DNA of 64,000 nt from the NCBI GenBank assembly GCA_951799425.1, contig OX637391.1, positions 49,819,069-49,883,068 of the forward strand, given 5' to 3'. Below the pieces are notes generated by a model. It searched no databases. It had not been told where the DNA came from and saw only the letters and a program-made list of their open reading frames with translations. The number at the start of each line of letters is the position of its first letter. Positions within the stretch are counted from its first letter, which is position 1. This document shows positions 30,301 to 59,190 of this stretch, piece after piece. Source of the DNA: Ilex aquifolium (lineage: Eukaryota; Streptophyta; Magnoliopsida; Aquifoliales; Aquifoliaceae). Position numbers and translations under genes: made by a program.

Positions 30301-33300
30301 TTTTCTCCCCGAACTTCCATGTAAGAATGAAAAATGATAGAAATGCTACAGCACACATGCTCATAAAATTTTTGAGCCAAGTGGGTTGGATAGGAAAAGA
30401 TGACCCAAGAAACAAAAACCACTATATGAATGACACCAAATATACTCTCTTTTTTTTATCAACACATAATATACTCAAAAGAAGCAAATCTGGGATGTGC
30501 TCACATACAATAAGAAGGGTTCACCAAAAAGATGATCCGAAATGAAATCACAAGAAGGAACCAGCAAAAATGAATAAAATTTTACATGGGAGCGATCTCA
30601 AAACTTAAAAATCAACAGAATAAAATGACAGATTTGAATTATCAGTTAGATTGCAATTTTCTATTTTTTTATAACCATAAGAAATTAAATTAATAGATAA
30701 GGATTCAAATTTTGATATTTAGAAAAAATAATAAATGGACTTGACAGATGACCAAAACCTAACGAAAAGGGAGTAAATTTAGTGAAATTCAAAGGAGCAA
30801 GTAACTCAAACTTAGTTCCATTTTCATATCAGCCTTCACAGCCTTCTTGGTTAACCTTCATAATCAATGGGATGTATCCTAAAGAATTTTAGGGCTGGGA
30901 AGTGTGAGAACTTCCTTGAGCCTAAGTAAGAATGAATGAAAGTTTATTCACAAGTGTGTGCTGAGGGCGCATGTGTGTGTGTGTGTGTATTGCTATGAAT
31001 TGGGACACGATATTTGAGTGATCTGACTTAAATGAAAGTTACTGTACACGGACACTTGTAAATGCATCAAGTATTTGTGTTAGACACTTGAAAAATGGGC
31101 AAGGGTATATGATCTATGTCCAACATTTGGGGCTAACCAATTCAACATTACCATTTATTTTAATGGAGTCCCATCTACTAACACTAATATTTATAGCTAA
31201 TGAATTGTCAGGATGCTTAGAACTCATATTCTTCTATATTTATTTTCAAAAAAAAATTCAGTGCATGCCAATCAGTTGGGCACAAAAAAAAAAACATTTG
31301 TTCCACCATTAGAGTTCACCTATTTGAATCTTAATAGTCAGGTAGCAACCTTTTTCCGAGTTAAGCATCATTAAATGTCCAATCAAGCGATTTTTGAGCC
31401 TCTAGCCTCACTATAGTAGATTCTCTATATACACATGCTCAGATATTACTATGAGGGAATATGCAATGCAGGAAAATAGCGCACATCAAAAAAGTCTCCA
31501 GAAGAGCCCTTTTACAATAAATAACACCCATCTACAATTTCAGTTATTTGACTTTTCTTATTGTTTTGCAACGATGATTATCACAAATATACTATATGAC
31601 TTATACCTCTAGATAGTTCAAGAATACACACTCAAATTATCAAAGTTGACAGTGTCAAGAAGATATGGACAAACTTAATTATAAACACTAAGCTAATACA
31701 AAGCATAGAAACAGTAAGATGTGTTTAGTTTACTAAAGACCCTCCAGTTGTTATTAGAGATTGGTAACTCAAACTGAGAAAATTTTGATAAAATTTTTCC
31801 TTCCTTGCCGAAATTCCAGAGTTTAGCGATCTTTTGACTCTACACTAGATGAAACTTTAATTCCAACTACAAGGTGCTACATATAGAACTCTTCGATGAC
31901 CATATCCTTGATATAAACACGTGGTTCCATGTCTTGTTTAATCTTCTAACACTAATCTCCTTAGCTTTCCTCTCCCCTCCCCCCCCCCCCCCCCCCTCCC
32001 CTCCCCTCTTCTCCTTGTACCCTCTCCTGGTGAAACAGAACACTGTGAGTCATATGATTACTGAAAAATCAGACTAAATACTCCAACAGGCCCTTATAGC
32101 ACCTTTTATTCAAATCAAATGAGCCCTCCTGCATAATACATTAATTGGCATCACCAGTATCTTCTTAAGAAAGCATTCATTTCAATGTTTTTCTTGCATT
32201 GCTAGGATATATTCCAACATCTGCATCGCGGCAAAAACCATTTTAAGATACATTGGTACAAGGTATTACAATTTTGCTTCAGAGTTGCCTAATCTTGGGA
32301 TGCATCATCTCCAATCTCAACTTTCTTATGTGATTTCATTCCAAAGTAACCAAGATGGTCCATGTATGCATTGTCAACATCACTTAGGAATCAGTAATAA
32401 CTCAACAGTGACTACTATTTCAACCCGAGTGGCCCCACCCATATTTTGCTAAGCCCTGATTATGACCTATTGCATGATGTCTCAAAGATTGGATAAATTC
32501 ACTGCACAAATGCGTGAAATCTCCCTGTAAAATGCAATCCTATTGCACACTAGAACTGAAACATGGATAAAGAGACAGAAAACCATAAAAGAAGCTAACC
32601 TTTTCCTTTTTAGTTTTCGCTTTAATTTATGCTACAACTTGCTTGCTCCAAACCTAAAAGGTGACTTTTCTATCCCTTTAGGATTTGCACTAACAAAATC
32701 CATTACCAACAACTTATCTGGCCCAATCTGCCAAGTTCCAATAGATGAATGTCATCATTGTTTAAGAAAACTGATGATCTCAATTGTGGCGAATCCCAGT
32801 ATACCACATCAAGGGTAAAACAAAAGGATGACAATTATAATGAATCAAAACTAAGCAATCGTCCCCACCAGTTCCTTATTCATGTTCATCACCAATTAAT
32901 AAATTCATCACACAACAGTTAAAAGGCACTTATTCCTTCAAAAAAAAATAATAATTCATTCACAACCAAACGCCCCAGAAGTCGTAGGGACAGACGCCTC
33001 CTGCAGTGGGCCACCCTTTTTTATTCAAAACTCAAAAACACTTCCAACAGAGTCTCCGTATCCATTCTTTCGAAAACCCACAGATTCTTGCATGCAAACA
33101 GAGATTATTAACTTATATTTACTTATCATCCAAGAACTAAATAAATAAATCTAAGAAACAAAATGACCACAAAAAATTACCTGGGCATAAAGAAAAGGGT
33201 CAGCAACAAAATTACTGGGGAAACCAGCATCAGAAACTGAAGCACAAGTGACAACAGGGTTGGCAACAGGCCATGCCGCACTCTGATCCTTCCATATATT

Positions 33301-33816
33301 CATCTGTCACCCATTTGAATTCAAACCCACATATCAAAACCCCCAAAAATCCAAAAACCAACAAATACCCACAAAAACCCAGAACCTAAAACCAATAAAA
33401 ATTACAGAAAATAAGCTTATAAAGCCGAAAAATAGAATAGGTTGGGGAGAAAAGCATGAAAAATTACCAAAATCAAAGAAAAATAACACATGCAAAGATG
33501 CATATAACATCAAAGGTGATATAAAACTTACAGCTTCAATGGGTTTGAGGGAAAATGGTGAGTCACCGTAGAAAACACCGATGGACCAAGACCCTTCATT
33601 GTCCTCATGACACCCAAGCGAGGACAGACCTGAACGGACATTGGGGGTGAACATGGACCACGCATAGAGGGTCGCAATCGAGCCCAAGAACACGAATGAT
33701 GCGAAAAAGAAGGCGAATGTCGAAGAGAGAGCACGATGATCCTGCCGCCACCGGCAACACAACCACCCACGGCCGTTGGTGGCGGCGCTTGACGTTACAA
33801 TCGGGCTGGAACCCAT
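27353..33816 (-). CDS. GINT1: Glucosamine inositolphosphorylceramide transferase (GT64), four exons
   Basis: Exons (minus strand): 33816-33532, 33303-33181, 29705-29538, 29035-27353. All are GT-AG, phase 0, giving 752 residues (Arabidopsis GINT1 has about 765). A signal-anchor helix lies at about residues 33-53. A beta-propeller-like N-terminal domain follows (FFETKNSITMQGDIGVARS, SFLISHDGKYWLFGSDHSG, NGGRPFVYNGNLYRVGQDC). Two further hydrophobic segments occur at about 383-411 and 467-490, then a C-terminal exostosin-like GT64 domain (about 504-744) with the metal-binding LELDDDIMMTCDD motif (Asp586-588), GFYPRLIDG and YFNCEDVLLNY. The protein is a Golgi enzyme adding a GlcNAc/glucosamine head group to GIPC sphingolipids. 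No break is seen. Confidence 0.94.
29706..33180. other. GINT1 intron 2 (3.5 kb)
   Basis: A long intron separating exons 2 and 3. It contains a (GT)n at 30969-30988 and a run of about eighteen C at 31979-31996 followed by CT-rich DNA. No transposon with readable ends and no second gene was recognised. Confidence 0.6.
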
Positions 33817-34100
33817 GTCGGAAAAGGGAAGCCGGAGGGGAGGGTGGTCGCCGCTGGTGAGATCTCACGGTGGAGGTGCATGTGAGGAGAGAGAAAGTCC
33901 AACTGAAACCAGCATTACATAAATCTAAGTGTATATATATACATATATAGATAGATTACATACAAAGTCTTTCGATATATGGGTGTTCTTGATATATATT
34001 TGAAATGACGGAGGCGGTGAGAGACTGCGCTTGTTCTTGTTTCATCTTCTTGTCTTCTCTCTCTAGTTTTCTCTCTCTAGAATTGAGACTCAAAGGTGGC
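33817..34100 (-). promoter_or_regulatory. GINT1 5' leader and core promoter region
   Basis: Reading the minus strand toward 33816, a TATATATACAC-type stretch (33930-33952) precedes a pyrimidine-rich leader (CTTTCTCTCTCC, about 33885-33900). Further CT-rich blocks lie at 34040-34080. This is a plausible plant core promoter; the start site is inferred. Confidence 0.35.
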
Positions 34101-40794: not shown

Positions 40795-41212
40795 CAAATC
40801 ATCTTTTGTTCTTATACTTAAATCCAAAAATGGCTACTTCAAAGTGATTCTTATAATATTCGAATGATATAAATTCGAAAAAGATACAACCAATTAAAGC
40901 GAACAATAAGTAGGTCATGTTCGTGTGAACCATATATAACCGAAGCGGAAGAATATGGTACCAAAAAACAAAAAAAAATCGGTATTGTACCACCATTACA
41001 AATCATCTTTCTTCTTTGTTCTTAATACTTAAATCCAAAATGGCTACTACAAAGTGATTCTTATAATTTTCGATGTGATATAAATTCGAAAATGATACAA
41101 CCAAATAAAGCGAGCAATAAGTCGGTCGTGTTAGTGTGAACCACATATCAGCGAAGGAGAAGACTACGGTATCAAAAAAAAATAAAATATCAGTACCGTA
41201 CCACCATTACAA
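40795..41212. repeat. Tandem duplication, two units of about 204-213 bp
   Basis: Unit 1 (40795-40998) and unit 2 (40999-41212) both begin CAAATCATCTTT and contain ACTTAAATCCAAAA, TGGCTACT-CAAAGTGATTC, TTATAAT-TTCGA and GAACCA-ATAT, ending ACCACCATTA. They differ by scattered substitutions and small indels, so the duplication is not recent. No coding content is seen. Confidence 0.85.
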
Positions 41213-41990
41213 ATTTTGTGAGTTGTTTTTACAATTTTTGAAGGTTATTTATAACTTTAGTAGTAATTTATGATTGATCCTAACATCTAGGTATCGATAT
41301 CAAGTTACTACAAAAGTTATAATTTACCCAAAAAAAAGTTGTTATTTAAACCCTAAAAATTGTAATATGTGTGCATAAATTAAAAAACTTATTACCAAAT
41401 CTATGTAAGCATAATTCATCATTCATTACTTTTAAGAATTGGATCCTCTCAATTGAAGTTTCTTTCCTTTTTTGTTCGATTTTAGTACCCACCATTAGTT
41501 CATTGGATCCGACCTATGGTCCCATCATTAATGCATGGTTGGTAATTAAAATTCAAATTAAGGACATGGCAAAGCTAAAAAGGTGAGGCTGCTTAACCAT
41601 TGAAAATAAGTTAACCCCTTCTCCAATTTCGTAAGCATTTGAACATCTTTCAATTGTTTTTGGATGGTTAAAATGCATTCAGATTGACGTATTCAATAGA
41701 TTTGGATTTTGTTTTACAAGTTATTCAGATCCACCGATATAGACAGATCTTCGTCATTCAAAAAACGAATTAGTAGGAATGCTATGATTTTTTGTAAAAA
41801 TTGGATTAGAGAAACTTGAAATCTTCTTTGAGATGCTAATAATTCTGTAAAATGGCATCAAGTGACCCGACTCAACTGGATGTGATATAATTAGCTTTGA
41901 TTGCCTTCCCTCCTTTGAAACGCATCACAATAGGTTAGATCGAGTGTTCATAAACAACAATGACCTTTCTCCGGTCTACGTGGAGAAGGT
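41213..41990. other. Intergenic, no feature recognised
   Basis: AT-rich DNA; no repeat ends or coding motif seen. Confidence 0.5.
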
Positions 41991-42357: not shown

Positions 42358-43419
42358 GTACATGGATGGAACACCTCACCCACCTCCTTCTCTCTCTTTT
42401 TTTTTTTGGTTTTTGGAGCCTGCCTCACCCACCTCCTTCTCTCACTTGGGTGACTAATCTTTTGGCTGTCATAAGCTACAACAATAGACAAGGGGGGAAA
42501 GAGCTTTACATGTAATGACTAATATAAACTTTTAACTACATCATTGGTTTGATTTTTCTAATCAGTCCCTTCAAAATGGGGGTAAGAGTACCTACCACTT
42601 ATCTCTTCCTCTACCAACTATAGACAGAAAGTGTGCGCCAACTACGACTTTTAACTGAACTAGATGTATGCGTTCCATGTACACTCAAATATTCCACGAA
42701 AATATCAACAGCCCTGTTGGGCTGTTTAAACAAAGAAAACCTACACAACCACAATGGATATGAAGTTCATACAAGTGTCTAGAACTAAATGATATTAGAA
42801 TATGCGACTTAAATCAATCTTGATGACACAATGGTGATCATCCTAGTCATTAATGATTAATTTATGGTGAAGAGTTGACTAATCTCGAAGAGAAAAAGAA
42901 AGGTAAGCAATTTGTTTTTTTTGTCTTGTTTTTTGGTTTTTTTTGGGGGGAGGGGGGCATTGAAGATGATAGTTGAATCACAAGTTTTTATTGAAGGAGG
43001 TGGGATTTGGGAAGGGGAACATCTCAACTTGGAGTTGAAAATAGGGTCAAATGATTCATACTATGAGTGGTTGTTTGAGATGGATAGGTGTTGGAAAAAA
43101 TGGTTTTAAATAATTGAGTTTTGAACAATTTTAGACTTAAATTTTATGTCTCAAAGTGACCCACTTGAATGGATGGAAAGAACTAAATTTAATGAAGAGT
43201 AGTGTATAAGACTTATCTCAGATTAGAAGAAGACCAAATTTTTGGTGAGTTAATATACTCTAGTAGGCTTCATGGGTCGGATCCCAAGGGTACCATGCTT
43301 TTGTGCGTGGAGCAAGCACGTACACAACTTTGGCTACCACACACGCACGTGCCACAATTCAACCCGGTCGGGCTTGGGCCTTAGGTAAAAAATATATTAT
43401 CTTTTTGGACAAAATTTAT
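42358..43419. other. Intergenic left of the large MULE
   Basis: CT-rich blocks at 42385-42410 and a T/G-rich run at 42917-42957. No gene or repeat with readable ends was recognised. Confidence 0.45.
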
Positions 43420-43940
43420 TGGGGAATTTAGAAGTCGCTACAAATTTTTAGACTTATTTAGGTAAAAATACAAAACAAAAACTTATTTGGGTAGAAGTGC
43501 ATTTTTTAAAAAAATACCGATATTGCCATTGGTAATTAGTTAAAAAATGGGAACCAATGGAATCCCATCCGTTTTTTTTGGCAAAAATAATGTAATGGGA
43601 GGGAAAAAGGGGATTTAATTATATTCTTCCATCTTCTTCGGCAGAGGGTTTGTATGCCTATTGGAATGCCAAAACTGTCATACCTGTGAGTGTTCTTCTT
43701 CTCTGTAAAAAATGTTTTCAGTTTAGTGTTCATCGTCCAAAAGGAGGAAGACTACATACTGTTTATCGACTTTATACAAGTGCATTGCGAGGTTTTTGAA
43801 TCGACTCCGACAATTTCTGAATCGTCGCATACGGACAACTCATTGTGAATCGTCTCCTACGAGTTCTTCTCCGGAAATTGCAGGTAACAATAGTGTTTGG
43901 GTTTTTTTTTCCGTTAATTAATTTCCTAATTTTCACAAGG

Positions 43941-44119
43941 GAAATGCTATTTGAACCTAATTTGGGGACCTAATCTAGGGACCTAATGATGTACAACCAT
44001 TGGATTGGTTGTGGGCTCCATCTAACATTGGAACTCACAACTAATCCAATGGTTACATTGAAGCCACATCATTAGGTCCCCATATTAGGTCCCCAAATAA
44101 GGTCCCTATAGCATTGCTC
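43941..44119. mobile_element. Mutator-like MITE of the AATGCTAT family, inside the MULE
   Basis: The ends are GAAATGCTATTTGAACC and, reversed, GAGCAATGCTATAGGGACC, each followed by ATTTGGGGACCTAAT. A perfect flanking repeat TTTTCACAAGG is present at 43930-43940 and 44120-44130. It is 179 bp and lies in what should be the first intron of the Ulp1-like gene. Confidence 0.83.
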
Positions 44120-44214
44120 TTTTCACAAGGTGTGTTGTTTGATTCTGGAAAAAAAACCTATTTTGGTGAATTGATAGTAACAAATTGCAGTTTTTTAAGT
44201 TACGATTAAGTAAC

Positions 44215-45426
44215 CTAATTTGTACAATCCTTGCATAACTGTTTTATGTAACTTTTTGTAATGACAAATAACAAACTATTAATATTCAAAAATTAATAGT
44301 TGATACTGTATTGACCTTACAATGTAGTTACAAATTTTATTGATGCTTACATAATATTCAATATTTACTTTAATGTTTTTATGTATCTAATTTGTGATTA
44401 CAAATTACAAACAGTTAATATCCACATATGAGTGATTGTAACTGTATTGGGTAACTATCTTGTGTATGAAATCATTCAACCCTGTTATATGTTTTTGGTA
44501 ACTGTATCTATTATATGTAGAGTAGTTGCGTTAAGTATATGTTACTTAATGGTTTAATGTTCAAAAATTGAATGAGTGTAACTGTATTGAGAAACTAATC
44601 TGTGTATCAAGTATTACATTATTATATATGCTATTGGTAACTGTAATTAGTATGTGTACTTGAGTTACTCTGTGCAATTGAGTTATGCTGCTCTTACAAA
44701 ATTAGGTGAATCTCATTCTATCAAATTAAACAGTTACCAATGTGTGGAATAATGGTTAGAGTAAAAATAAATATATCAGATATAACTGTATGATACCCTA
44801 ACGCTGTTAATTCAATTGACCTAATTTGTACAATCCTTGCATAAGTGTTTCATGTAACTTTTTGTAATGACAAATAACAAATTATTAATATTCAAAAATT
44901 AATAGTTGATACTGTATTGACCTTACAATGTAGTTACAAATTTTATTGCTGCTTACATAATATTCAATATTTACTTTAATATTTTTAAGTATCTAATTTG
45001 TGATTACAAATTACAAACAGTTAATATCCACAGATGAGTGATTGTAACTGTATTGGGTAACTATCTTGTGTATGAAATCATTCAACCCTGTTATATGTTT
45101 TTGGTAACTGTATATATTATATGTAGAGTAGTTGCGTTAAGTATATGTTACTTAATGGTTTAATGATCAAAAATTGAATGAGTGTAATTGTATTGAGACA
45201 CTAATCTGTGTATCAAGTATTACATTATTATATATGCTATTGGTAACTGTAATTAGTATGTGTACTTGAGTTACTCTGTGCAATTGAGTTATGCTGCTCT
45301 TACAAAATTAGGTGAATTTCATTCTAACAAATTAAACAGTTACCAATGTGTGGAATAATGGTTAGAGTAAAAATAAATATATCAGATATAACTGTATGAT
45401 ACCCTAACGCTGTTAATTCAATTGAC
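44215..45426 (+). repeat. Exact-period 606-bp tandem duplication upstream of the Ulp1-like gene
   Basis: Unit 1 is 44215-44820 and unit 2 is 44821-45426. Both start CTAATTTGTACAATCC and end TTAATTCAATTGAC, with only about ten scattered differences by eye. Each unit contains four or five GTAACTG motifs in plus orientation and one reversed. The second unit runs directly into the splice acceptor ACAG|GTC that precedes the start codon at 45432. A probable upstream donor is at 43885 (TTGCAG|GTAAC), so the duplication lies in a leader intron. Confidence 0.9.
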
Positions 45427-45431
45427 AGGTC

Positions 45432-48400
45432 ATGGCGAAAAAAAAAGCTTCACAAAACAGACCTGCTATAAGGGGCAGCAAAAAAATTCCACAGCAAGAG
45501 TCACAAGCAACAAATACGAAGGTCACTGGTGCAAAATACAACCCTCAATACAGATCAAATATGCTAGCTATCATCAGGGCAATTGAAGAACTTCATTTAA
45601 ATGATTATCACAAGACATCGTTGCAAAAGACCCCATTCTGGCTGCTTTTTGAATGTATAATTGACCAAACATTGGACAAAACATGGTGCCGTAAAAGTGA
45701 CAGCTGCATTCTTGAAATTCTATTATGTTTCAATTCAGATACTTCAAGATTCATTATCGGGAGAAAAAAATTGAGACTGCGACCTAATGATGTCACCCTA
45801 ATATTTGGCATACAAGATGGGTGTGAAAAGATTGATTGTACGATACATGGTAAATCAGTTACACCATTCACAGAACGCTGGTTCAAGAAGGATCGGAGGT
45901 TAACAGCAACGTTGATAAGAAGCAAGCTAAAACATGCGTCCGAGTTGGACAATGAGAATGGGTATGATGACTTGGCTAGATTGTTATGTTTGTATCTGTT
46001 GGCAACACTTTTCTTCCCAGTCACGGGGAACACAATGAGTTGGGGGTTGGTACCATATATTGAAAAGTTGGATGCATGTAGAAAATACAATTGGTCCGAA
46101 GCTATAACTGATACTCTAATTTCATCATTGAAGAAGAAGAAAGAAACGCCATCGGCTATAAATGGATGCGTCCTCCTAATACCAGTAAGTGTCTTAATAT
46201 ATCTGTTAATATATGTTTTTGAGTATTTCAATTACTTTGATAGCACCAAATATGATATAATAATCATAATGTTATATGTTGCAGTACTGGCTGTGTGAAC
46301 ACACCTCGATGTTAACTCCCAGCACTGAGAGGCCATTTCCTCGGTTCCTCAAATGGAACTTACCAAGTCTGAATAGAGCAATCAAGCAAAAATGTTTGGC
46401 AAAAATTATGGCAAGTGAGGTAAGTCTCAGTTCATAAATTATAATCCCAATAACTTGTAACTGTTTTGAAAATGCAACTATGTTAATGTTTGTTAATTAA
46501 ATTTATTTTTGTCCTCAGATCATGAAGCAAAGATTGAAGAGAACTAAGGAAGAGAAAATGTTTATATCATCGAAAAAGAAGGCAGTAAAAGAATTGAAAA
46601 AACCAATGGAGCAGGAGTTAGACGACAATGACAAACTTGACACAGAAAAAAATGGTGTTGGAAAGACATCAATTGGTGATGATGAATGTTCAAATGAAAT
46701 GGGACAATTGGATGACTTAGTTGAAATTAATGTTACCCAACCGACAGAAATACAGTCAAAAGAACAAGAGGTTTGGATTGACAGTGAAAAGGACAACATT
46801 ATGAGAGAGAGATGAATTTCAAAAGATTGTTGTTGAGTTGATTGTGAAGGACAAATTAAACCAAGAAAAAATTGCCGAGTTGGCCAATGAGAATGCAACG
46901 TTGAAAAGACACATGCAAGACAGTGTTGACATGGGGCATCACAAGGTATATATAAAAATAACTGTTATAATGTATATGAGAATCTTTTGCATAGTATTGT
47001 GAGCCCTTTTAAGTGTGTATCTATATTATACCTAAATATTGTAACTGTTTCAGCCCTGTGTTGTATAACTGTATTTGGATTAACATGTTAACTGTATGGT
47101 TCAATAATTTAGCTACCTGTTACATGTTAACTGCTTGTTGAAGCCCCGCTCTGTTTTATATTATAGATGTGGTGCAATCCTTTTTGAACATATTTGATTA
47201 ACTTTTTTTTAGTCTTAACGATTTGTCATGGTGTAACTATTCTACTATCTTATATAGTTTAACTTTATGATGTAACTGTTTTGTACAACTGTATTAGATA
47301 ACAAAGTTACATACACAACAGTTACCCATATATGAATAGAAATATTTGAGATGCATATGGATGTTTTTGGGGATGAATATACAATTGGTTGACTAAGTTG
47401 AAGTTGATGACTGTATCTATACTATACATGAATGGTGTAACTGTTTCTGTATACTTACTTGCAGGTTAAAGTGCATCTATTTGGTGCTCATGTTTGAGTA
47501 ACTGTTTGAGCCCTGTGTAACTTTTATGATGTAACTGTTTGTTGTACTTGTTATGTAACTGTTTTGGTTAATTGTATAATGTATTAGTTAACTGGTATTT
47601 TCATAATGAATTCATGCAGCAAGCTGAAGTGCAAGGGGACATTCCATCCGAAGATAATGTTCAATCATCACAGATTATAGTTTCCATGTTGCAATTAGTT
47701 GACAGAGACACAAAAATTGGCCAACTTGAGACATTGGTTCATACGATGCATAATGAAAAAGACGCAATTGAGGCTGAAAATGTGACATTAAAAGAGAATG
47801 TCATAGTACTAGAAGTTGAAAATACAGAATTAATAGATCAAATAAATGAGTTGACAGTTCACAGCATCACCCAGAATCTGAATACCATCGAGCCTAGTGA
47901 CAGTGCAAAAATTGGTCAAACTTCAATGGTTCGAAAGCTGAAGACCAAAGAGAGAAAGAGAAAAATATATGAGGATTACGAGTATGGCAATAAGAAAAAG
48001 GGCAAGGGACACATTGAGGGGTCACAGTCAATTATCACCCTCGAGGATGAAGCAGACAAGATCAGTGCGGCGAAAGAACAAGCGAAAATCGATAAGGAAA
48101 TTGCAAGGTTATGGAACATTTGTCAGAAAACGAATCGGCCTATCTATGATCAATTACAACAAATCAATGATATAGAAGGACCAACGTAAGTATATTATAT
48201 ATTATAACATTTATGTATTATGCTACTGATTTTTCATTGAAATACATGAAATTACTCACTATACTTTTATTAAAAAATATGAACTTACCTTATATGACTG
48301 TGCTCTGACCATATAGGACACCCATTTGGTCCGGTGTTTCAATTGGAAACTACATAAATGTTGTAGACACATTGAAACTGGTTGGAGGATGTGAACTGTA

Positions 48401-51400
48401 CAACAGTGTACATATTAAACTTAAATCTTTTTTTGTCCACATCACAAAATTGTCAACTTAAAATGTTTACATGTAATCTGTTTGCATGCACCAAGTACTG
48501 TTTTGAACGTTCTTTTATACATTGTAACAGATTATAGATTGCTGGGGAGATATGCTGCTTGAACTTGATGCTTACAACGAGCAGTTAACGTATAAAAAAC
48601 GTTGCTTCTTCTTCAACAGTCTATGTTGGGTACATTAAAATTTATTGACATTTTTTTTTAATTTCAGTATTGTTATATTTCAATTTAATTGTCCATAAAT
48701 TGGGTTATTTGTAGACATTCGTTACAAAAAACATGAATCTATGCAAAGACCAAATTGACAAAAACCTCATTTTGGGAAGAGATCGTCGATTCCTTGTATT
48801 TCCCATGAATTCCAATGGTCAAAACAACCTTGTGGAACCTTGGCATTGGACATTGTTAGTGTTGGATACTGACGCTGGATCTTGGACACACTACAATTCT
48901 AAGAAATCACGAACAGTGAAGAGGGACGTGTGGCTGGATGATGCAAGAGTATTGGTAAAAAACAACTGAATCCCATTGTATTTGTTTGAGTTTTGCAGTA
49001 TCATAGCCGACACTAATATATGTCATTGAATAACATGCAGAAAGATTATGTTGAAAAGAAAATTAGTGAAATGCAGGCAGCCGATGGAAATGACATTGAC
49101 CCCTCAGACAATGTTCTTCCACTGACAGTGTAAAACCCGAGGAAATTTAAACTTTTGAGAAAAAGGGCAAAATGGTAAATTGCCACTATGGTACAGGTTG
49201 TAAACCTGAAATTTTCTAGAGCTCGGATGACGAAACGGACATCACCGTTGGATTCGTCTCGCAAAACCTAGTTACCTTGTCAAATTTCATTGAATTCTGA
49301 GTTAGTCGGATTTTTCGCGTTTTACGAGGCAGTCGAACCTCGGGAGACCCAAAAACGAGATTCTGAATAAAATTTTAAATTTTGGGAAATAAATGACGGT
49401 AAGTTAAAACAAAAATATTTTGAACTTGAATCGGAGTGAAATTTAATCGTTTCGGGGCTAAAACAGACCCGGGAAATAAGGGTCGTGTGGCGCATTGAGG
49501 GCCAAGTATTTAAAGGGGAGAAAATCAGATTTTCTCCCCATTTGTTCAGCCGATACACGTGAGAGGAAGAGAGGGAAAGAGCAAAGTTTTCTCCACCTTC
49601 TCTCTACGATCTACAACGATTGAGAGCTCAAATCAACTCGAGCCAAGAGAGAAAGTTGTTCTCCTCGCCAAGGACTACAAAACCATACCAAGAAGGTCGG
49701 GTTTGGGCGAAATTCAAGGAACGGAATTTTGGGAAGCTAGGGCTTAGAGCTTGAATCGGGTCTTGGAGCTTCCTACGGTCGTTCCTTACGCTTCAAGAGG
49801 TAGGATTTCTTCCTACTAAGGTTTATTCCAAACCTAGAATGTTTTAATGAAATGGGTAGGATGATAGGATGTGTATATCTTGCCTATTTGTTTGATTTTG
49901 GTGAAATGGTTATGGAATTGGGTAAAGATCAATTCTAATTGGATTGGTAATTAGAAGTTTCTAAATGAGATTTCTAGAATTGGGTGCATGAAATTAATCC
50001 AATGTGAATCTTGGGTTATATGGAATTGTGGGCATGTTATGTGTTTATGTATATGCCTTGAGGAATTTAAGATGTTGATAACATGATTATGTGACAACAT
50101 GCTTGGAAATTGTTTTATGGAAATTATATGCTTATGATATGATTTTGCCATGAAGTGTGTGAAATGTGTTGTAAATGTTCATATGTTACTCATACCATAT
50201 TGAACATTGTATTATTGTTGCAATGGGACATCACATTGCATATGCATGGGAACATCGCATTTAGTGGGTGTGTGTGCATGGTGGTTGTCTTCACCAAGTT
50301 TGGTGGACGACGAGTGGGCTCGGGCGATACGGATTGGTGACCTAGTCGAGTCTCACGGTTTGCATGGTTGTTAGGGTTGGGGTAGCAAGAAGGGCTAGAC
50401 TATCCCTTGGGTGAGAGACCCGGTGATTGGATACGCACTCCGTTAGTATATGAGCCTATAAAGTGTGTCGGTGTACGCGGAACCGTTGGTGGAAGTCCAT
50501 GAATTCTGTGTAGGTTGGGTGACCTTTGGTGTGAGTCCATGAACATCCACCCCTATAAAGACCCTAGAATGAAATGTCATTTGATGTGTAACATAAATGA
50601 CGGATTGGTACACATTGGCACTTGCATGTGTAGAGGAGCCGAGAAGGGCTTGGTTGATATGCATGAGTGAGTCTCACCTCATTCCATAGCATCGCATTGC
50701 AAATTCCATCATTGAATATATTTCCTTGCTTGGAATGTTATGAATTGTTGATTTTGGCATGTGAACATTTCATATGCATTTAGGTTGGGGAGTAGCCTCA
50801 TTAGGAGATACCCTATTGAGCGTGGCTCACCCTTTATGGGAAAAACATTTCAGGTGCGGGGTTTACACCGGCGGACGGCTCCCATTTCGAGCCTCAAGGT
50901 TGAAGAAAGCCGACTTGTGGCTTTTATGGTTATTTTGTAAAGCTTTTGTAAGAATTCCATTTTGATATATAAATATATGGAATCAATTGTAATAGAACTT
51001 GTACAAACCATGTTTTATATGGAAATCCTTGTCAAACATGTATTTGATGAATTGGGAAAGGTTTTGAATGGATTGGAAATGAAAAATGGTTGAAAATGGC
51101 AAAACTGGACAGAGAGTACCGGTACTGGGTACCGGTACCCCCTTTCCAGTAGGTTAACAGTACCGGTACTGTGTACCGGTACACTCTCCAAAATTTACTG
51201 ATTTTTAAATTGTTTTGCCCTATTTTCAATCTATGTTTTCCCTTCCTCCAATGATGTAAATGGACTATAATGGAGTGTAAATCAAGGTGCGTTGGGTCTT
51301 GGTTAAACCAAATGAATAATTGATTTCAATTTACAGTTGTGGGTTATGATTCTGGTTAAAGGAATGTTATTTGACGTGGTGTCGGGTTTAAGGGACATTC

Positions 51401-51771
51401 ACGGATACTTCTGCGAGTTGACGGTTGGTCAACGGTTAATATAGGACCCCCGGAAATTGGGGCGTCACAGACAGCGTATGAGAAAATGCCACAACAACGG
51501 GCAGATTCGTACGTATTATTTTTTAACGTTAATTCATTCAAAATCAATGAAATGTTAGTAACAAAACCTATAATGCAGGGTCGATTATGGACTATTCGTT
51601 TGCTACATAATGAGACAGCTTGCAAAGGACAAAGACATACCAGAAAAGTTGACAGCTGCACAAGTGAAAAAATTCCGGACGGAAATGATGGAAATGTTCT
51701 TAAACCATTCCAATTCTTGGACACTAAATGATTTCCATGAAAGGATGAAATTGAAGGCAATGTATGAATAG
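45432..51771 (+). pseudogene. MULE-borne Ulp1/SENP-protease-like gene (nine exons, disrupted)
   Basis: Exons: 45432-46184, 46285-46419, 46519-46945, 47620-48185, 48317-48407, 48531-48629, 48715-48954, 49041-49128 plus 51475-51508, 51579-51771 (about 870 codons). The N-terminal domain (about residues 35-300: KSDSCILEILLCFN, LRLRPNDVTLIFGIQDG) recalls the DUF1985/plant-mobile-domain segments of transposon-linked Ulp proteins. A coiled coil and basic NLS-like KLKTKERKRK follow, then a C48 peptidase fold: PWHWTLLVLD with the catalytic His, HYNSKKS where the Asp is usual, PQQRADS, and VDYGLFVCYIMRQL. The catalytic Cys position holds Tyr (TAT). Exon 3 has a one-base frame slip in its GAGAGAGA run near 46800, and a solo LTR splits exon 8. 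Family members are SUMO/ubiquitin-like proteases or anti-silencing factors; this copy is dead. Confidence 0.82.
49129..51469 (+). mobile_element. Solo LTR, probably Ty3/gypsy, inserted in exon 8 of the Ulp1-like gene
   Basis: A 2341-bp segment starting TGTAAAACCCGAGG and ending ATTGGGGCGTCACA. It is flanked by the perfect 5-bp duplication GACAG (49124-49128 and 51470-51474). Length and termini fit long-LTR gypsy elements of the Del/Tekay type, orientation plus by inference. No internal gag-pol is present, so it is a recombination relic. Bridging the flanks rejoins the host reading frame, so it landed in a continuous exon. The perfect duplication suggests modest age. Confidence 0.86.
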
Positions 51772-52463
51772 TCCTATTTGAGATGTAATTGGATGTTTTG
51801 GGAATGAAATCAGACTATTGGTTGACTTAGTTGAAATTAATGTGTGTGTCTATAATATACTTGGATGGAGTAACTGTTTCAGGTCTGTGTACCATATATG
51901 TTGTAACTGTTTAGTCCACCTGCATTATATATCAAAGGTACTTACAAAACAGCTACACCATATATCAATAGTCATATTTGAGATGTAATTGGATGTTTTG
52001 GGAATGAAATGAGACTATTGGTTGACTTAGTTGAAGTTTATGTGTGTGTATATACTATAACTGAATGGTGTAACTGTTTCAGTATACTTATTTACATGTT
52101 AAAGTGCAGCTATTTGGTGTAGCTGCTTTGAGTAACTGTTTCAGCTCTGTGAACCATGATGGTGTAACTGTTTTGTCCAACTGGAGTATATAACAAAGTT
52201 ACCTACAAAAACAGCTACACCATATATCCATAGTCCTATTTGAGATGTAGTTGGATGTTTTGGGATTGAAATGAGACAATTGGTTGACTTAGTTGTATTT
52301 AATGTGTGTATCTATAATATACCTGGATGGAGTAACTGTTTCAGTATACTTCTTTACATATTAAAGTGCATCTATTTGGTGCAAATGCTTTGAGTAACTG
52401 TTTCAGCTCTGTGTACCATTTATGGTGTAACTTTTTTGTCCACCAGCAGTATATAACCAAGTT
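51772..52463 (+). repeat. Tandem array of about 200-265-bp units between the two MULE genes
   Basis: Units start near 51769, 51966 and 52230 with TCCTATTTGAGATGTA-TTGGATG and pass through TTGGTTGACTTAGTTG, GTAACTGTTTCAG, a second GTAACTGTTT and ACAGCTACACCATATAT. The last unit is interrupted by the retroelement at 52469 and resumes at 55507. A related partial unit lies in intron 3 of the Ulp1-like gene (47345-47530). Confidence 0.85.
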
Positions 52464-52468
52464 ACCTA

Positions 52469-54147
52469 TGATTAACCATCAAAAGTGCTATTTTATTATA
52501 TTTAATAATTGGTTAATTGCATATTATTTGTGATTAAATGTGTTAAATTTCTTGATTTTCTAATTTGATACTTTTTCTAGTTGTTTGGTTTATTTTGCAG
52601 GTAAATTGGTTGATTTAAAGTAATAATGGATAATGCAAGTGAATCAATCACTAGAGGAAGAATCACAATTGATAAGGATTGAAGAGTCGAGATTGGGATA
52701 GGAAGACTTGAAGATAAATCAGAATTTTAATCCTTATAAGAGTTTAAGTGAGAAGAAAACTCATTTAAAGTTGGATTAGGAAAGTTTCCTAAAAGATAAG
52801 GATTTGACACGTCTTCAGTATTTCATTCATAAATTTTGACTCCGATATCGGATTGACTTGATTTTTGTGGGGTTGGAAAGAAGACTTCAAGGGCTATAGA
52901 AGTGTATTTCACGAAAATTTCGTGATTCAGTCTCTAAATATGTGAAATTCAAGCTCGAAGTCTGGACAGATTTTGTACCCGCAGGGCCCAAGATTTATGC
53001 ACGGGATTTAACTTTACAAGACATCTTTTTGAGAAAGGAATTCCTTCCAACCTGTACTTAGGATTTATTTTACTATAAATAAGGGCTCTCATCTATTGAG
53101 AGGGGGGATCTTTTTGCTCACGAATTCTTCAATGTATTTTGCAATTCTTTTATCATGTCCGGCTAGAAGGTTAAGATAGGGCTAAGGGAAAACCTCTCAG
53201 TGAAGTACGGTATTATCATTGACTTTGTACTTAATGATTTATGATATTGTGTTAATCTAATTTCTGATCTTTTAGTAAAGTTTTTATTCTATAAAAACTC
53301 CTGAGTTGTTGTGCCACGTACATCGATTGCTTGAGTTTCCCTGCGAATAAATAACTGGTTATTCCACGTTTGAAGTGTTAGCATTGTTTCACAGCTAGAC
53401 ATATTGTCTTTCTTTTTTTTTCAACTTTTTTTTCTTTTCTTTTTTTTTAGTAAGACATCTAATGCAAATATTCACAAGTATGTAAAACTCTTTTTTTTTT
53501 TTTTCTTTTCTTAACCAACATCTCCCAAATTACATAAACAACAAAAGTTCAATCTCAGGATAACCAAGGGTAAAAAATATTATTTTTTCTCATTGGCTTG
53601 GTTATTATATGTTGGGTATAAGAAATAAAATTTTGCTTTAAAGGCTCAATCATGGCTTCTAGGGATAATAATATTCAAAGAATAAGGTTTAAGCTCAAAT
53701 AATGACAAAGATGGCCTAAAATCATATCTCAAGAGCTTTTGATAACACACTTCTCATGCAAATAATTCAAAGTCAAGCAATCATTCACAATATTGGTGTT
53801 AACCAAAACAAAAATAATGAGACTATTGAAGGAGATTAGCTAAATAAAAATATTTTTTATTGAGTAAATGTAAATAACCCTCCAAAAAAGATTGGAACAA
53901 AACTCACTAGGGTTTTTATGCATCTCCACTATATGTTTCAAGTTCTCAAGGTAAAATACCTAATAAATTTTCAACTTGGTAAAGTCTAAAGTGCACAAAT
54001 TGTGAGTTTTTATAAGAACATGATATGAGATACAAAAATATAGAATAAAATTCTATGTGATCCTTAAACAGTTGCAAATTTAAAGCTATACAAATTATTT
54101 ATATATTGTGGTGTCAAACTATGCATAAAAATGTTATTTAGATATTT

Positions 54148-54188
<41 letters not shown>

Positions 54189-55501
54189 TTATTTTTTATT
54201 TTTACCAACATAATTAAACTAGAAATTGTTACAACAAAAAACATACCCACACCCCCCAACCTAAATCCAACATTGTCCTCAATGTAAAAATAAATACATT
54301 AATGCTTAATAAAAATAATGAATAAAGATCAAAGGAGTAGGAATACCTGGTGCTGCAACAACTCTAAAACCTAAAAATAAAAACTCAAAAAAAAAACTAT
54401 AAATTAAAACAAATAGAAACAAAACTAAAATTAAAAATAAAATAAAATAAAATCTAACTACTATGTACAAATAAAAATAAAAGCTCACACTCAATCCGGT
54501 TTAAAATCATATTTGAATATGCGACCATTCAATTTTATTGGCTTAAAAATGTGGTGTGGAAATAACTCTTTTAATCGAACTATCCACTCATATACCCAAG
54601 ATATTATTAGAGTATGCAAGAAAAGGGAGATATATACATTTTTATGCAAATCTAACAATGAGATAGAAAATAGATTTTTATCAATTACAACACACAACTC
54701 AACTTTCATACCCTCACCAAGATTAGATATGTGAATCTCATTACTACTTGTTGATAATGAAATGTCTTTGGGCTCATTAGTCTCTTGTGGAATAATAATG
54801 TCACTTAATTCTTCACTATCAAGAGTATTAATGGATTCATTCTCAGTTTGTAGTTCAGGAAAAAAATCACTCTCACTATATTGACTATTTTTATCCTCTT
54901 GTTCTTGTATCAATATATTGAGTATATATTTTATCTCTTTAATATCTTGACTTGTTTGGGCATAGATATCTTTTATCTCTTTAATATCTTGACTTGTTTG
55001 GGCATTGAAAGCTAGTTGACTTTGAATAAATTCGTTAAGAATATTCTCCAAATTCTCTTCTTGTAGGTCATGGTATGGTGGATATTGGGGAGGGTCTTGT
55101 GGTGATGTGACATATATAGGTAACTGATAATGTCCATTCTCCCAACCAAAATTGGGATAAAAAGTTTCAAAACAATGGTCGGGGTAAGGTTGAGAAGAAT
55201 TAGGTAAGACAATTGTCCCATTCCTCAAAACTTTTCGAGCAGTTGGAATTAAATGGCAAACCTCAATGGGATGCCCATACACATCACAAAGCACACATAG
55301 TTCCTCCATCGGGGAAAATCTTCACACCACATTAAAAGAAATATAAAATATAAAAATAGAAATTATGAAATATCTAACCTGAGGAAAAATAAAACAAATA
55401 ATAAAAAAAAGGACGAGATTACCGGATCTGTGACGAGTCTCAAATCAAGCAAACCTCAATAGATGGCGATGTGTTCTTTGCCTTCAAACAATTCCCCGGC
55501 A
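52469..55501 (-). mobile_element. Gag-only LTR-type retroelement fossil inserted in the MULE
   Basis: A 3033-bp insertion flanked by the 5-bp duplication ACCTA (52464-52468 and 55502-55506). The surrounding tandem unit (AAGTTACCTA / CAACACAGATACACC) is rejoined when it is bridged. The right end reads CCCCGGCAAC on the plus strand, matching the 3' part of plant tRNA-Asp, so it is a primer-binding-site remnant. A gag-like frame (55309-54491) with a CCHC knuckle and a G-rich polypurine-like tract (minus strand, about 54262-54250) follow. The left portion (from 52469) is LTR-like, but it also holds a TATAAATAA box at 53092 in plus orientation, so internal orientation is not fully settled. Only one terminal repeat is recognised. 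It resembles non-autonomous TR-GAG/LARD elements of the Athila/Tat kind; no pol is seen. Confidence 0.72.
54491..55309 (-). CDS. Gag-like frame of the retroelement fossil
   Basis: About 272 codons on the minus strand. Near the N-terminus CVLCDVYGHPIEVC is a classical CX2CX4HX4C zinc knuckle. A Tyr/Pro-rich stretch follows (NFGWENGHYQLPIYV, PPQYPPYHD), then a predicted coiled coil with an in-frame duplication of QTSQDIKEIK visible as a DNA repeat at 54940-55010. This layout resembles the C-terminal half of Athila/Tat-type gag. No protease, reverse transcriptase or integrase accompanies it. It is part of a fossil; expression is not implied. Confidence 0.6.
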   Translation of the reverse strand: MEELCVLCDVYGHPIEVCHLIPTARKVLRNGTIVLPNSSQPYPDHCFETFYPNFGWENGHYQLPIYVTSPQDPPQYPPYHDLQEENLENILNEFIQSQLAFNAQTSQDIKEIKDIYAQTSQDIKEIKYILNILIQEQEDKNSQYSESDFFPELQTENESINTLDSEELSDIIIPQETNEPKDISLSTSSNEIHISNLGEGMKVELCVVIDKNLFSISLLDLHKNVYISLFLHTLIISWVYEWIVRLKELFPHHIFKPIKLNGRIFKYDFKPD

Positions 55502-55790
55502 ACCTACAACACAGATACACCATATATCAATACTTTAGATGCATTGTGTTGAATAAATGTAACAGTGACCACATCCCATAATTCCTACAGGTATCCCTGA
55601 TATACACATGGATTTTCCAGTTTTGATTTTCCATTCATCCCCCAACATTTACTCAACGTACAAAAATTTGCACCCTTACTATAACATTCATATTAACAAA
55701 TCCATAAAAGAACCATTACTACAATAAAACAGCAACTGGAAAAAAGAAATATTCAAATAAAAAATTTATTAGTTTAAACTAGTAATCCAA

Positions 55791-58145
55791 TCACAAAGGT
55801 TCTTTACAAGTTTTCTTGTTGTGACTACCTAACCGTCCACACCGACCACATCGAATTCGTCTAATAAGTTCCCCCCTTGACCTAATTCTACATTTTTTGG
55901 GACGGCCCGGCTGCTTCTTAGTTGATGGTGGCAAAATATCAGCTTCGTCAACATTGAAGTCCGAACGACCAAGAGTAGGGATTGGGAATATAGGTTGAGC
56001 GTATGATTTCTTGTATGTACTAACATGATAATAATAATCAACAAACTCATTCATATTTCTCTCACTTTTACGTATTGCCGCTACTGCATGAGAACAAGGA
56101 AATCCATTAATCTACCATTGAAAGCATGAACACGTGTCATTCTGAATGTCGACTGAAACAGAAGGATTTGAATTAACTTCATACACATCATTGTTCGAAA
56201 CACTAACAGCCCAAGACCTGCTTTTGGCAAATGCAATCTGTAATCTTGAATCCATCTCAGGACATAAATTTTCATTCCATGTAGACGCAGTGATAATCCT
56301 AGCACCAATTTGATTCATAATTTGACACCGAATAGTGTCAACCATGCTCGTAATGGGTAAATGTCGTACTTTCATAATCCACGAATTGAAGGACTCCACT
56401 GCATTAGAGTTCATCTCGCCATAACGTCTACCTTTAAAGTATGCATTTGCCCAATGCGCGTATGGAAGATTATCCAAAAAACGTTTGACAATGAAACCAC
56501 CCTCACTTCGAAAAGCTTCAATTTTTTGGGTAAACAGTGAAATGGTGGGGGCATAAACACACTCACACAACAGCACCACCATATGCTCTCTAAATCCATT
56601 TGAATAACGACTACCACTGAACTTGTCCCGCAAGTTCGCCTTCAAGTGCTGCAAACAGAAAGCGTGGTGACACATTGAAAAAATATTTGGCATGGCTTCC
56701 AACAAACCAACATTACGATCAGAGACAAATGTAATGTCCCTATTCGGATCCAAAATCTCTGACAGTTGTTGTAAGAACCATAACCAATTTGCCTCATTTT
56801 CTGAGTCAACAATCGCAAACGCTAGTGGGTATAATCCTGAAATACAAAGGTAAATATATATAGTTAAGTAAAATATTAAAACGATTGCCTACAGATTCAC
56901 ATCAGTGCAACAAATATACACCAATCTGTTAAATTAAAATAGTTACAATAAACACATACAGTTACACTACTTATAAAAAAATAAAAAAAACCAAATACAA
57001 CAATTAAAATACAAAAGCAAATCGCACATTAAAATAAAAAAGGTTAGAGGATTTATACCCTGATTACCATCCTTCCCAATTGCCGAAAGAATGCATCATT
57101 TGTACTTTCCTTTAATGAATGTCCCATCAATGAATAAAATTGGACGACAATAATTGAAATCATCGATACAAGCCTTGAAGGACACAAACAATCTATGGAA
57201 ACGGTTAGACTTATCATCACAATGCAAAACTATATGGCTTCTAGGGTTTGTATTACTCGCAGCATCCACATACCAACGTAACTGTTTGTATGACAACGTA
57301 TGATCCCCAAAAAGCATACATTTTGCTTTTTCCACCCCCATCCAAGCTTGGTGATACGATACGTCAAGACCATAAGATGTAAGGAAATCACTAACCACGT
57401 CCACTGGACGAGTGGACGTCTGATCACGGACATTATCAACAATCAAATCTCCAATCAAATTATAAGATAATCTATTGTTCTTTGTGGTACGCAGGGCTAC
57501 ACCACATGTGTGTTCATTATTCATTTTCCGTATGTAAAAGAAACCATTAAGTTTCTGAATAGTAGCATTTACATGCCATCCACACCCTTTATCATACTTT
57601 GAGGCGCACTCAGCAATAACCCTATCCCTACAATTCCTCACATAATTAAACTTGAACCCAATCTCTATTGAGTATTTGCACAGAGCTTTCTTGAAATGTG
57701 TGACACCACCTTCGAACCTTTGGCCTACACGGCTTATTTCATTTGACCACCCAGCTGTCAACAATAATTTTTCCGTACGTGAGCAAAAGCTAGGGAGCAA
57801 ATCATCATCACACTCAACCCCATCGTCGCAAATATAAACATCTTCAAGCAAATTATCATCAACCACCACACGTGACTCTTTATCTTGCCTAGTTACCATG
57901 ACCTCAACATGATTGACATTTATCAAGCGCATTATATCAAACATATTACGCAAGTCCCCATCATTTTGCAAACAACATTTTGGGTGCCCTGGAATAGAAT
58001 ATGACATGACAACAGACACATTACCCAATTCCTCCCATTTTCCGCAAAGCCTACCATAAATGAAATCAAAGGTTGCATGAGCAGAACATCTGATAATAAA
58101 GGTGTCAACATCATATTTGCATACAAGCAGCACTATTCCCTCCAT
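55791..58145 (-). pseudogene. MURA-type transposase of the MULE (two exons, two nonsense codons)
   Basis: Exon 1 is 58145-57059 and exon 2 is 56836-55791, with a GT-AG intron in phase 1, for 711 codons in one frame. Domains in order: N-terminal PB1-like MuDR domain (about 1-90), acidic linker, a DNA-binding WRKY/GCM1-like zinc finger (CGWHVNATIQ, NNEHTCG; about 170-230), the MULE DDE core with LFIDGTFIKGKY (first Asp about 340), FVSDRNVGLLEA (second Asp) and NSNAVESFNSW (Glu), a SWIM finger (CSCFQW then INGFPCSHA) and a C-terminal CCHC knuckle (CGRCGRLGSHNKKTC). The catalytic residues are all present. TGA replaces an expected Gly codon at 57096-57098, and TAG replaces an expected Gln inside the SWIM finger at 56112-56114. 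The gene converges on the Ulp1-like gene, tail to tail. Confidence 0.92.
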
Positions 58146-59190
58146 TTCCTGAATACGACATTAAAAAAATGAATGACAATGTATCAATACAAAATAAAAA
58201 ACAAAAAACAGTCATACAAAACAGTTACATTAAAAAAAATACAAATGACTGAATTAAATAGTGCCATACTGGAAGAAAAACATAGTACAAAAAATAGTTA
58301 CAATATACAGGCTCTGCCAAAATTGATATTGGCTGAAACAATGCATAAAAAATCATTTACAGTTAAACAGAACTCTGATAAAAAAAAACAGTTACACCCA
58401 TTAACACAAAAACAATTTTTTTTTTCCTTCATTCCAACAACGAAATTTTTTTTACAAAAACGAAACAGTTACACTCCTTAGAATCAAGGCAGAACTTTTA
58501 TCCAATTCAATTGATCAGGGAACATACATAACACAAAATCAAACATAAAAATTCCCCAACAAAAATGACCGAATAAAAGAATAAATAAAATTATTAACAA
58601 CTAACCTTCAAGCCGATGAACATATGAATTTCCACAAAAAAAAAAGAAAAAAATCAGAAATATAATTATTATGTGTATATCACCAAATAGATACACCCAT
58701 TAACAACAGTTACACCCAATAGAATCAAAGCAGTTTTTCTTTCCCACTCATTTCATCAGCGAAGAAAAAAAAAAAAAAATCAAACATAATTTTCCATACA
58801 AAAAGGACCGAATATTTTCAATCTTTTTTACGAACAAACCTTCAAGACGACACCGATGATTGATTCTTCAAATCTACTGTTGAATACACACTTACAGCCG
58901 TTTATTCCCACCCGTTTATTCCATAAAAAACTGCTCATTCAAAATTTAAAAAACAAAGATAACAATTAGGGAATCTTTACATATTTGTTTCCTCAAATAA
59001 CTGTCAAATAATGCTGCATAAATTAAGGAAGGGTGTTTAGGTAAAAAAGATTTTAATTCATTTGAATTATGTACCTAAACCAAATAAGTTTTATTAAAAT
59101 TGAACTTAAATGAATAAACAACTTATCCATACACTTTTGCATAAATAAGTCTTCAAAATTGTACCCACACCTAAAAAACCCAAATTTATT
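58146..59190. other. MULE subterminal region upstream of the transposase
   Basis: This is the 5' leader/promoter side of the transposase gene. It contains at least four CAGTTAC motifs on the plus strand (58207, 58393, 58467, 58708), that is GTAACTG reading with the transposase. It ends in the diverged terminal repeat near 59060-59185. No other gene is seen. Confidence 0.6.

Follow-up and report, generated by a model that had tools for sequence, protein, structure and literature searches.

The element and its two convergent genes

The window examined here is a 64,000-nucleotide (64-kb) stretch of the Ilex aquifolium genome (contig OX637391.1, positions 49,819,069 to 49,883,068). A Mutator-like element (MULE) occupies 43421-59181 and is bordered on either side by the 9-bp sequence AAATTTATT, a perfect target-site duplication (TSD) whose length is within the ~8-11 bp usual for MULEs. 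The terminal inverted repeats (TIRs) are degenerate and only ~47 bp long, which agrees with the Kaonashi trait of absent or degenerate TIRs. The best ungapped block, at positions 7-47 of the end, has 32 matches in 41 bases, and the end-repeat score of 37 was reached by 0 of 300 dinucleotide shuffles, the best of which scored 33.

Within the element, a MURA transposase gene on the minus strand and a nine-exon Ulp1-like gene on the plus strand are convergent. A sequence-only reading of this DNA had described such a pair within one element, and the TSD, the DBD_Tnp_Mut, MULE and C48 domains and the strands of the two genes confirm it. Absent from that reading were the disruptions of the genes, three younger insertions that sit within the element and the replacement of two catalytic residues. 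The features of the element are listed below, where GTAACTGT is the 8-base motif discussed in the next section and PMD is the plant mobile domain.

43412-43420, no strand: left target-site duplication AAATTTATT
43421-43467, plus: left degenerate terminal inverted repeat
44131-45431, plus: Ulp1-like upstream region, with 9 GTAACTGT sites; contains the 606-bp direct duplication
44208-45419: ~606-bp direct duplication upstream of the Ulp1-like gene, 97% over 300 bp, which brings motifs along
45432-46184, plus: Ulp1-like exon 1 (alone: PMD E 0.071, DUF1985 E 0.038)
46285-46419, plus: Ulp1-like exon 2
46519-46945, plus: Ulp1-like exon 3, with a frame change at ~46803-46815 within a GAGAGAGA run
46946-47619, plus: Ulp1-like intron 3, with 7 GTAACTGT sites
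47620-48185, plus: Ulp1-like exon 4, charged and coiled-coil-like by eye; coiled-coil-type Pfam matches weak
48317-48407, plus: Ulp1-like exon 5
48531-48629, plus: Ulp1-like exon 6
48715-48954, plus: Ulp1-like exon 7, with WHW (catalytic His kept) and HYNSK (Asn at the Asp position)
49041-49128, plus: Ulp1-like exon 8, part before the insert
51470-51508, plus: Ulp1-like exon 8, part after the insert, beginning with the duplicated GACAG
51579-51771, plus: Ulp1-like exon 9 and stop, with SVDYGLFVC (Tyr at the catalytic Cys position)
51772-52468, plus: tandem repeat downstream of the Ulp1-like gene, 262-bp unit, with 7 GTAACTGT sites
55791-56836, minus: MURA exon 2, with the MULE domain, a SWIM finger with an in-frame stop and a C-terminal CCHC-like knuckle (by eye)
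56837-57058, minus: MURA intron, with 1 GTAACTGT site
57059-58145, minus: MURA exon 1, with DBD_Tnp_Mut and an in-frame stop close to the exon end
58146-59134, minus: MURA upstream region, with 4 GTAACTGT sites
59135-59181, minus: right degenerate terminal inverted repeat
59182-59190, no strand: right target-site duplication AAATTTATT

MURA, on the minus strand, starts at an ATG at 58145, stops at 55791 and has a single intron at 57058-56837. Its DBD_Tnp_Mut (E 2.8e-10) and MULE (E 4.6e-10) domains both pass their Pfam cut-offs, and a SWIM match (E 0.015) falls under its own. There are two in-frame stops in the gene, one close to the end of exon 1 and the other inside the SWIM finger. NCBIfam gave no more than weak IS256- and ISH6-type similarity for MURA exon 2 and nothing useful for MURA exon 1 or Ulp1-like exon 1, and scans of viral contigs with MURA exon 2 and with Ulp1-like exon 1 found no confirmed relative. 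The Ulp1-like gene (plus strand, 45432-51771, with GT-AG introns) is damaged by the frameshift in exon 3 and by a 2.3-kb insert in exon 8. Taking the frame with the fewest stops for each of ten stretches, we tallied 0 in-frame stops in 864 codons, suggesting that this frame was long kept open. The present copy encodes neither MURA nor the accessory protein, as we call the Ulp1-like product, in intact form, and because both genes are broken it is unlikely to act now.

When the sequences on both sides of the exon 8 insert were run as one query with XXXX between them, Peptidase_C48 was matched at E 8e-6, with 26.3 bits against a cut-off of 20.7. The separate parts did not list this family at E up to 10, a range in which the HMMER filters discard most matches above ~0.1. 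A search of PDB sequences with the two Ulp1 parts apart returned nothing relevant, and with the parts joined by XXXX its best matches were SENP8 chains, at a weak E of 0.47-0.59. At the other end of the protein, exons 1 and 2 joined match the PMD over residues ~120-281 (E 1.2e-6 to 6.2e-6, 26-28.4 bits against a cut-off of 34.9). This is below the Pfam cut-off, though better than the DUF1985 match for the same two exons; the two matches overlap on one stretch, and the families may be related. AlphaFold2 gave no reliable model for exon 1 alone (mean pLDDT 35.8).

The GTAACTGT array and its possible reader

The dense single-motif array claimed by the sequence-only reading proved to be real and far above chance. 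Of the 32 GTAACTGT sites in the window, 29 lie in the non-coding DNA of the element (5,444 nt), where 100 shuffles gave a mean of 0.40 and a maximum of 2, and shifting the borders by a few bases left the counts identical (29 in 5,421 nt). Against means from the same number of shuffles, the coding DNA of the element held 1 site in 4,764 nt (mean 0.14), the younger inserts 0 in 5,553 nt (mean 0.14) and the flanks 2 in 48,221 nt (mean 1.23). The resulting density is 5.35 per kb in the non-coding part of the element versus 0.04 per kb in the flanks. GTAACTGT also tops the list of 8-mers for this non-coding part without prior naming of the motif, words of A and T only having been excluded from the list.

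The sites are spread over the upstream region (9), intron 2 (1), intron 3 (7) and downstream repeat (7) of the Ulp1-like gene and over the intron (1) and upstream region (4) of MURA. Part of these copies are due to the 606-bp duplication and the 262-bp tandem repeat, so tandem duplication might have produced the array as a neutral side effect, and the Ulp1-like gene might be a functionless passenger that the element captured. The grapevine elements described in the ULP section of PMC2528002, where ULP presence tracks neither MULE phylogeny nor TIRs, would fit such a passenger. After masking the second 606-bp copy and the later 262-bp units, however, 21 sites are left in six compartments, and the absence of stops from the Ulp1-like frame also speaks against a functionless gene. 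With this six-compartment spread and nearly empty exons, a neutral origin is disfavoured and we regard it as improbable. The bases flanking the motif vary from site to site; only the two directly after it are strongly biased (A or T, then T in 25 of 29). Since the surroundings vary, we read the motif as conserved beyond simple copying.

The motif mostly follows the sense strand of the gene it accompanies. In the left half of the element 21 sites are on the plus and 3 on the minus strand; the 5 in the right half are all on the minus strand. This orientation would suit a second alternative, in which host MYB-type factors are recruited by the array and drive both genes while the Ulp1-like protein does another job, for instance stripping the transposase or host factors of SUMO or NEDD8. 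TAACTG, which is contained in GTAACTGT, fits CNGTTR, which we take to be the plant MYB core. Other words that such factors might read are not enriched in the element: CAACTG occurs at 0.74 per kb versus 0.60 in the flank, TAACGG at 0.18 versus 0.19, CAACGG at 0 versus 0.12 and TAACCG at 0 versus 0.17. Sites also lie beyond the upstream regions, in introns and in the downstream repeat, which is not what this alternative would lead us to expect, and a role in SUMO or NEDD8 removal sits poorly with a protease in which the catalytic positions except His are both replaced.

One-mismatch variants of the motif bear on the same question, with the caution that the counts are small and the repeat copies partly dependent. 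Variants at positions 1 and 7 together made up 15 of 22 in the element versus 7 of 25 in the flank (p 0.009), an argument against MYB recognition that is weakened because it rests mainly on position 1. Two points favour MYB recognition: the clearest excess is at that position (10 versus a shuffle mean of 1.7 and a maximum of 6), which lies outside the MYB core, and position-7 variants alone resemble the flank (7/22 versus 5/25, p 0.50). Measured against 100 shuffles, though, position-7 variants, which CNGTTR forbids, are in excess (14 versus a mean of 6.3 and a maximum of 12), and position-6 variants, which it allows, are at chance (2 versus a mean of 2.5). Since the position-6 count points the same way as the weakened argument, we left our estimate for the MYB alternative where it was, and consider it unlikely.

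Decay by C>T change at the CHG site of the motif was also considered and set aside, as the 5 G>A and 6 G>T changes at position 7 and the single C>T change at position 5 in the uncollapsed set form no clear deamination pattern. The parts of the element with the densest array seem poor in CpG. The raw counts are 0 in 697 bp of the array at 51772-52468, 5 in 1,301 bp upstream of the Ulp1-like gene and 2 in 674 bp of intron 3, as against 11 in the MURA upstream region (1,021 bp).

Motif arrays of this kind have been described for the VANC proteins of Arabidopsis VANDAL elements. As reported in passages of Hosaka et al. (PMC5735166), VANC21 binds YAGTATTAY in the non-coding DNA of its own elements and sequences affected by VANC6 contain AGTTGTCC/AGTTGTAC; the motifs lie in tandem repeats, which for VANC21 are located in introns and ahead of the transposase gene. 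Part of a 2026 review adds that some VANC genes bear a Ulp1 domain (KIU) and likewise recognize specific motifs (PMC13317346). Given the VANC-like layout found here and the review's account of Ulp1-bearing VANC genes, the best reading of the present copy is that of a dead Ulp1-bearing, motif-directed anti-silencing MULE. We lean, with a little more than even confidence, towards an autonomous MULE, now decayed, that belonged to the Ulp1-bearing VANDAL/Kaonashi type and whose accessory protein would have bound the GTAACTGT arrays and removed silencing.

The accessory protein would consist of a PMD/DUF1985-like N-terminal half, a charged middle and a Ulp1-fold C-terminal half, and in a living element it would bind the GTAACTGT arrays of its own family in upstream regions, introns and the downstream repeat. 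Such binding would lead to local removal of silencing marks, and copies freed in this way could then be moved by MURA. Judging from the analysis above, the array is probably recognized by the accessory protein and an anti-silencing role of this protein is likely; we infer that it would both bind the array and demethylate it. The sequence-only reading had placed the protein in the VANC-type group. That placement is borne out as far as a Ulp1-bearing MULE and a motif layout like that of VANC21 and VANC6 go (in the passages of PMC5735166 that describe it), and the direct sequence link to VANC is weak.

Several observations weigh against this anti-silencing account. The DUF1985 match (residues 148-231) is below threshold, scoring 13.9-14.4 bits where the cut-off is 35.1 (E 0.038-0.055), leaving the PMD as the better N-terminal match, and a query of exons 1-3 joined did not list DUF1985 at E up to 1. 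DUF287 did not appear by name among the listed Pfam matches, in a library that was not checked for such a model. GTAACTGT is missing from the left 515 nt, from six of the eight Ulp1-like introns and from the 293 nt downstream of MURA, and it contains the MYB-like core described above. A third gene, as in Kaonashi or of the VANB-like kind, was not recognized by eye among 31 open frames of at least 70 aa, and may have been lost from the present copy. Finally, these results come from one copy of the element in one window. As for the published motifs themselves, the element contains one AGTTGTCC, one AGTTGTAC and no YAGTATTAY, and the DNA outside it one AGTTGTAC and one YAGTATTAY; we compared GTAACTGT with the published VANC motifs by eye and claim no similarity.

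Younger insertions and flanking DNA

The three younger insertions are as follows.

43941-44119, no strand: MITE-like insertion of 179 bp in the left end of the element, which has inverted ends and is flanked by an 11-bp direct repeat, TTTTCACAAGG
49129-51469, no strand: solo-LTR-like insertion of 2,341 bp in exon 8 of the Ulp1-like gene, with TG..CA ends and a 5-bp duplication, GACAG
52469-55501, no strand: second LTR-retrotransposon-like insertion, with TG..CA ends and a 5-bp duplication, ACCTA

By chance the borders of the exon 8 insert make a GT..AG pair, and gene-finding programs could mistake it for an intron. The insertion at 52469-55501 contains a minus-strand open frame of 276 aa whose start may, judged by eye, be zinc-knuckle-like, and a search for an LTR pair within it found none (score 24 against the best of 34 among 30 shuffles).

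The gene content of the window is that of a plant. Outside the element, a GINT1-type glycosyltransferase gene lies on the minus strand at 27353-33864 (GINT1_N E 5.5e-99, GT64 E 3.4e-63), ~9.6 kb from the left end of the element. Of the 14 open frames of at least 150 aa, the seven that lie outside the element were all scanned, and this is the host gene that could be recognized in them. Remnants of a Copia-type retrotransposon are present at 9384-11536, with RVT_2 under its cut-off and a retroviral SH3-like domain over its cut-off, and a 211-bp unit occurs in ~2 tandem copies with 87% matches at 40805-41214.

Catalytic positions and known relatives

In the SENP8 alignment (weak, E 0.47), the His and Asp of SENP8 that we take to be catalytic align with the His of WHW and the Asn of HYNSK, at a spacing of 17 residues in both proteins. 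The D-C-G position of C48 reads D-Y-G in SVDYGLFVC and, compared with what we take to be the usual C48 motif, one extra residue follows the Gln pair before the Tyr. With Asn for Asp and Tyr for Cys, only the His of the three catalytic residues is kept. Nonsense changes number 2 in 1,570 codons over both genes, both of them in MURA, and under four simple mutation models decay alone would change both catalytic codons with a probability of ~0.0004-0.0005, or 0.004-0.006 at the upper Poisson bound. So low a probability favours a loss before the death of this copy.

It is possible, then, that the accessory protein was a Ulp1-fold protein that was catalytically dead before the copy died and served as a DNA- or protein-binding module only, which would be compatible with the anti-silencing reading. 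The calculation presumes, however, that both residues were present in the ancestor, and the two sites were picked post hoc. Each change is a single transition from the canonical codon, as expected from the decay of methylated DNA, and there is the extra residue before the Tyr, a position across which no solved structure was aligned. On balance we hold an early loss of catalysis to be tentative and rather doubtful. The more specific proposal that a PMD/DUF1985-type half was fused to a Ulp1 fold whose protease activity was lost (His-Asn-Tyr for His-Asp-Cys) while the family was active, seems to us unlikely.

ULP genes have been described in MULEs of Arabidopsis, melon, rice and grapevine, in either orientation and in elements that have TIRs as well as in those that lack them; the grapevine cases were published in 2008 (the ULP section of PMC2528002). 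The number of MULEs with an intact C48 domain is put at 97 or more in a portion of PMC6117577, and the capture of the PMD by MULEs is covered in part of PMC5418596, where an anti-silencing use is offered as speculation. The review passages also describe the Ulp1 domain of such elements as strongly conserved in eudicots and state its function to be unknown (PMC13317346). The sequence-only reading had expected the pairing of a Ulp1-fold protein with a dense single-motif array in a large woody-plant genome to extend the range of such systems, an expectation that the grapevine elements and the review do not sustain (sections of PMC2528002 and PMC13317346). Since ULP-MULEs, C48-bearing MULEs and PMD capture are already in print, we regard the element as a further, decayed example of a described type of MULE.

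Its closest parallels differ from it in several respects. The statement that Kaonashi MULEs carry Ulp1-like genes agrees with the ULP section of PMC2528002, where the accessory gene lies opposite mudrA, and the Arabidopsis Kaonashi elements (KI/KIU) share with ours a mudrA gene and a reverse-oriented ULP-like gene (PMC2528002, PMC13317346, in the parts on these elements). KI elements are called non-TIR and reported with three genes in those parts, whereas our element still shows a TIR, short and degenerate, and two genes were recognized; the C48 domain of the present element also lacks two catalytic residues, and the likeness is one of gene content. Passages on VANDAL21 and VANDAL6 (PMC5735166, PMC10398659) describe partly tandem non-coding motif arrays, an intron-containing accessory gene and degenerate TIRs, as found here. 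Unlike those elements, ours has GTAACTGT as its motif, not the YAGTATTAY or AGTTGTCC/AGTTGTAC reported in them, and it shows a PMD that outscores DUF1985 in the N-terminal half, an attached Ulp1 fold and no recognized VANB-like gene. The grapevine ULP-MULEs, from a woody plant, have ULP downstream of the transposase in either orientation and include TIR and non-TIR forms, but the ULP section of PMC2528002 does not describe a motif array or a PMD-like half. In the PMD-bearing MULEs of PMC5418596, as far as the part on these elements goes, the PMD is fused to the transposase, whereas here it lies in a separate Ulp1-like gene.

What the element itself contributes is a sharp motif (no search for it in print was made), a PMD-like half in a Ulp1 gene and the replaced catalytic residues. 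If the proposed mechanism is right, it would offer a further readable pair of motif and accessory gene, and this motif, which differs from those published for VANC21 and VANC6, is sharp enough for a gel-shift test. A copy with replaced catalytic positions also bears on whether cleavage is needed at all, provided that intact relatives agree. Should the loss of protease activity while the family was active prove true, the Ulp1 fold would have its part in recognition, as a module of motif-directed anti-silencing at GTAACTGT arrays, and protein cleavage would not be needed to account for the spread it is known to have had through plant transposons.

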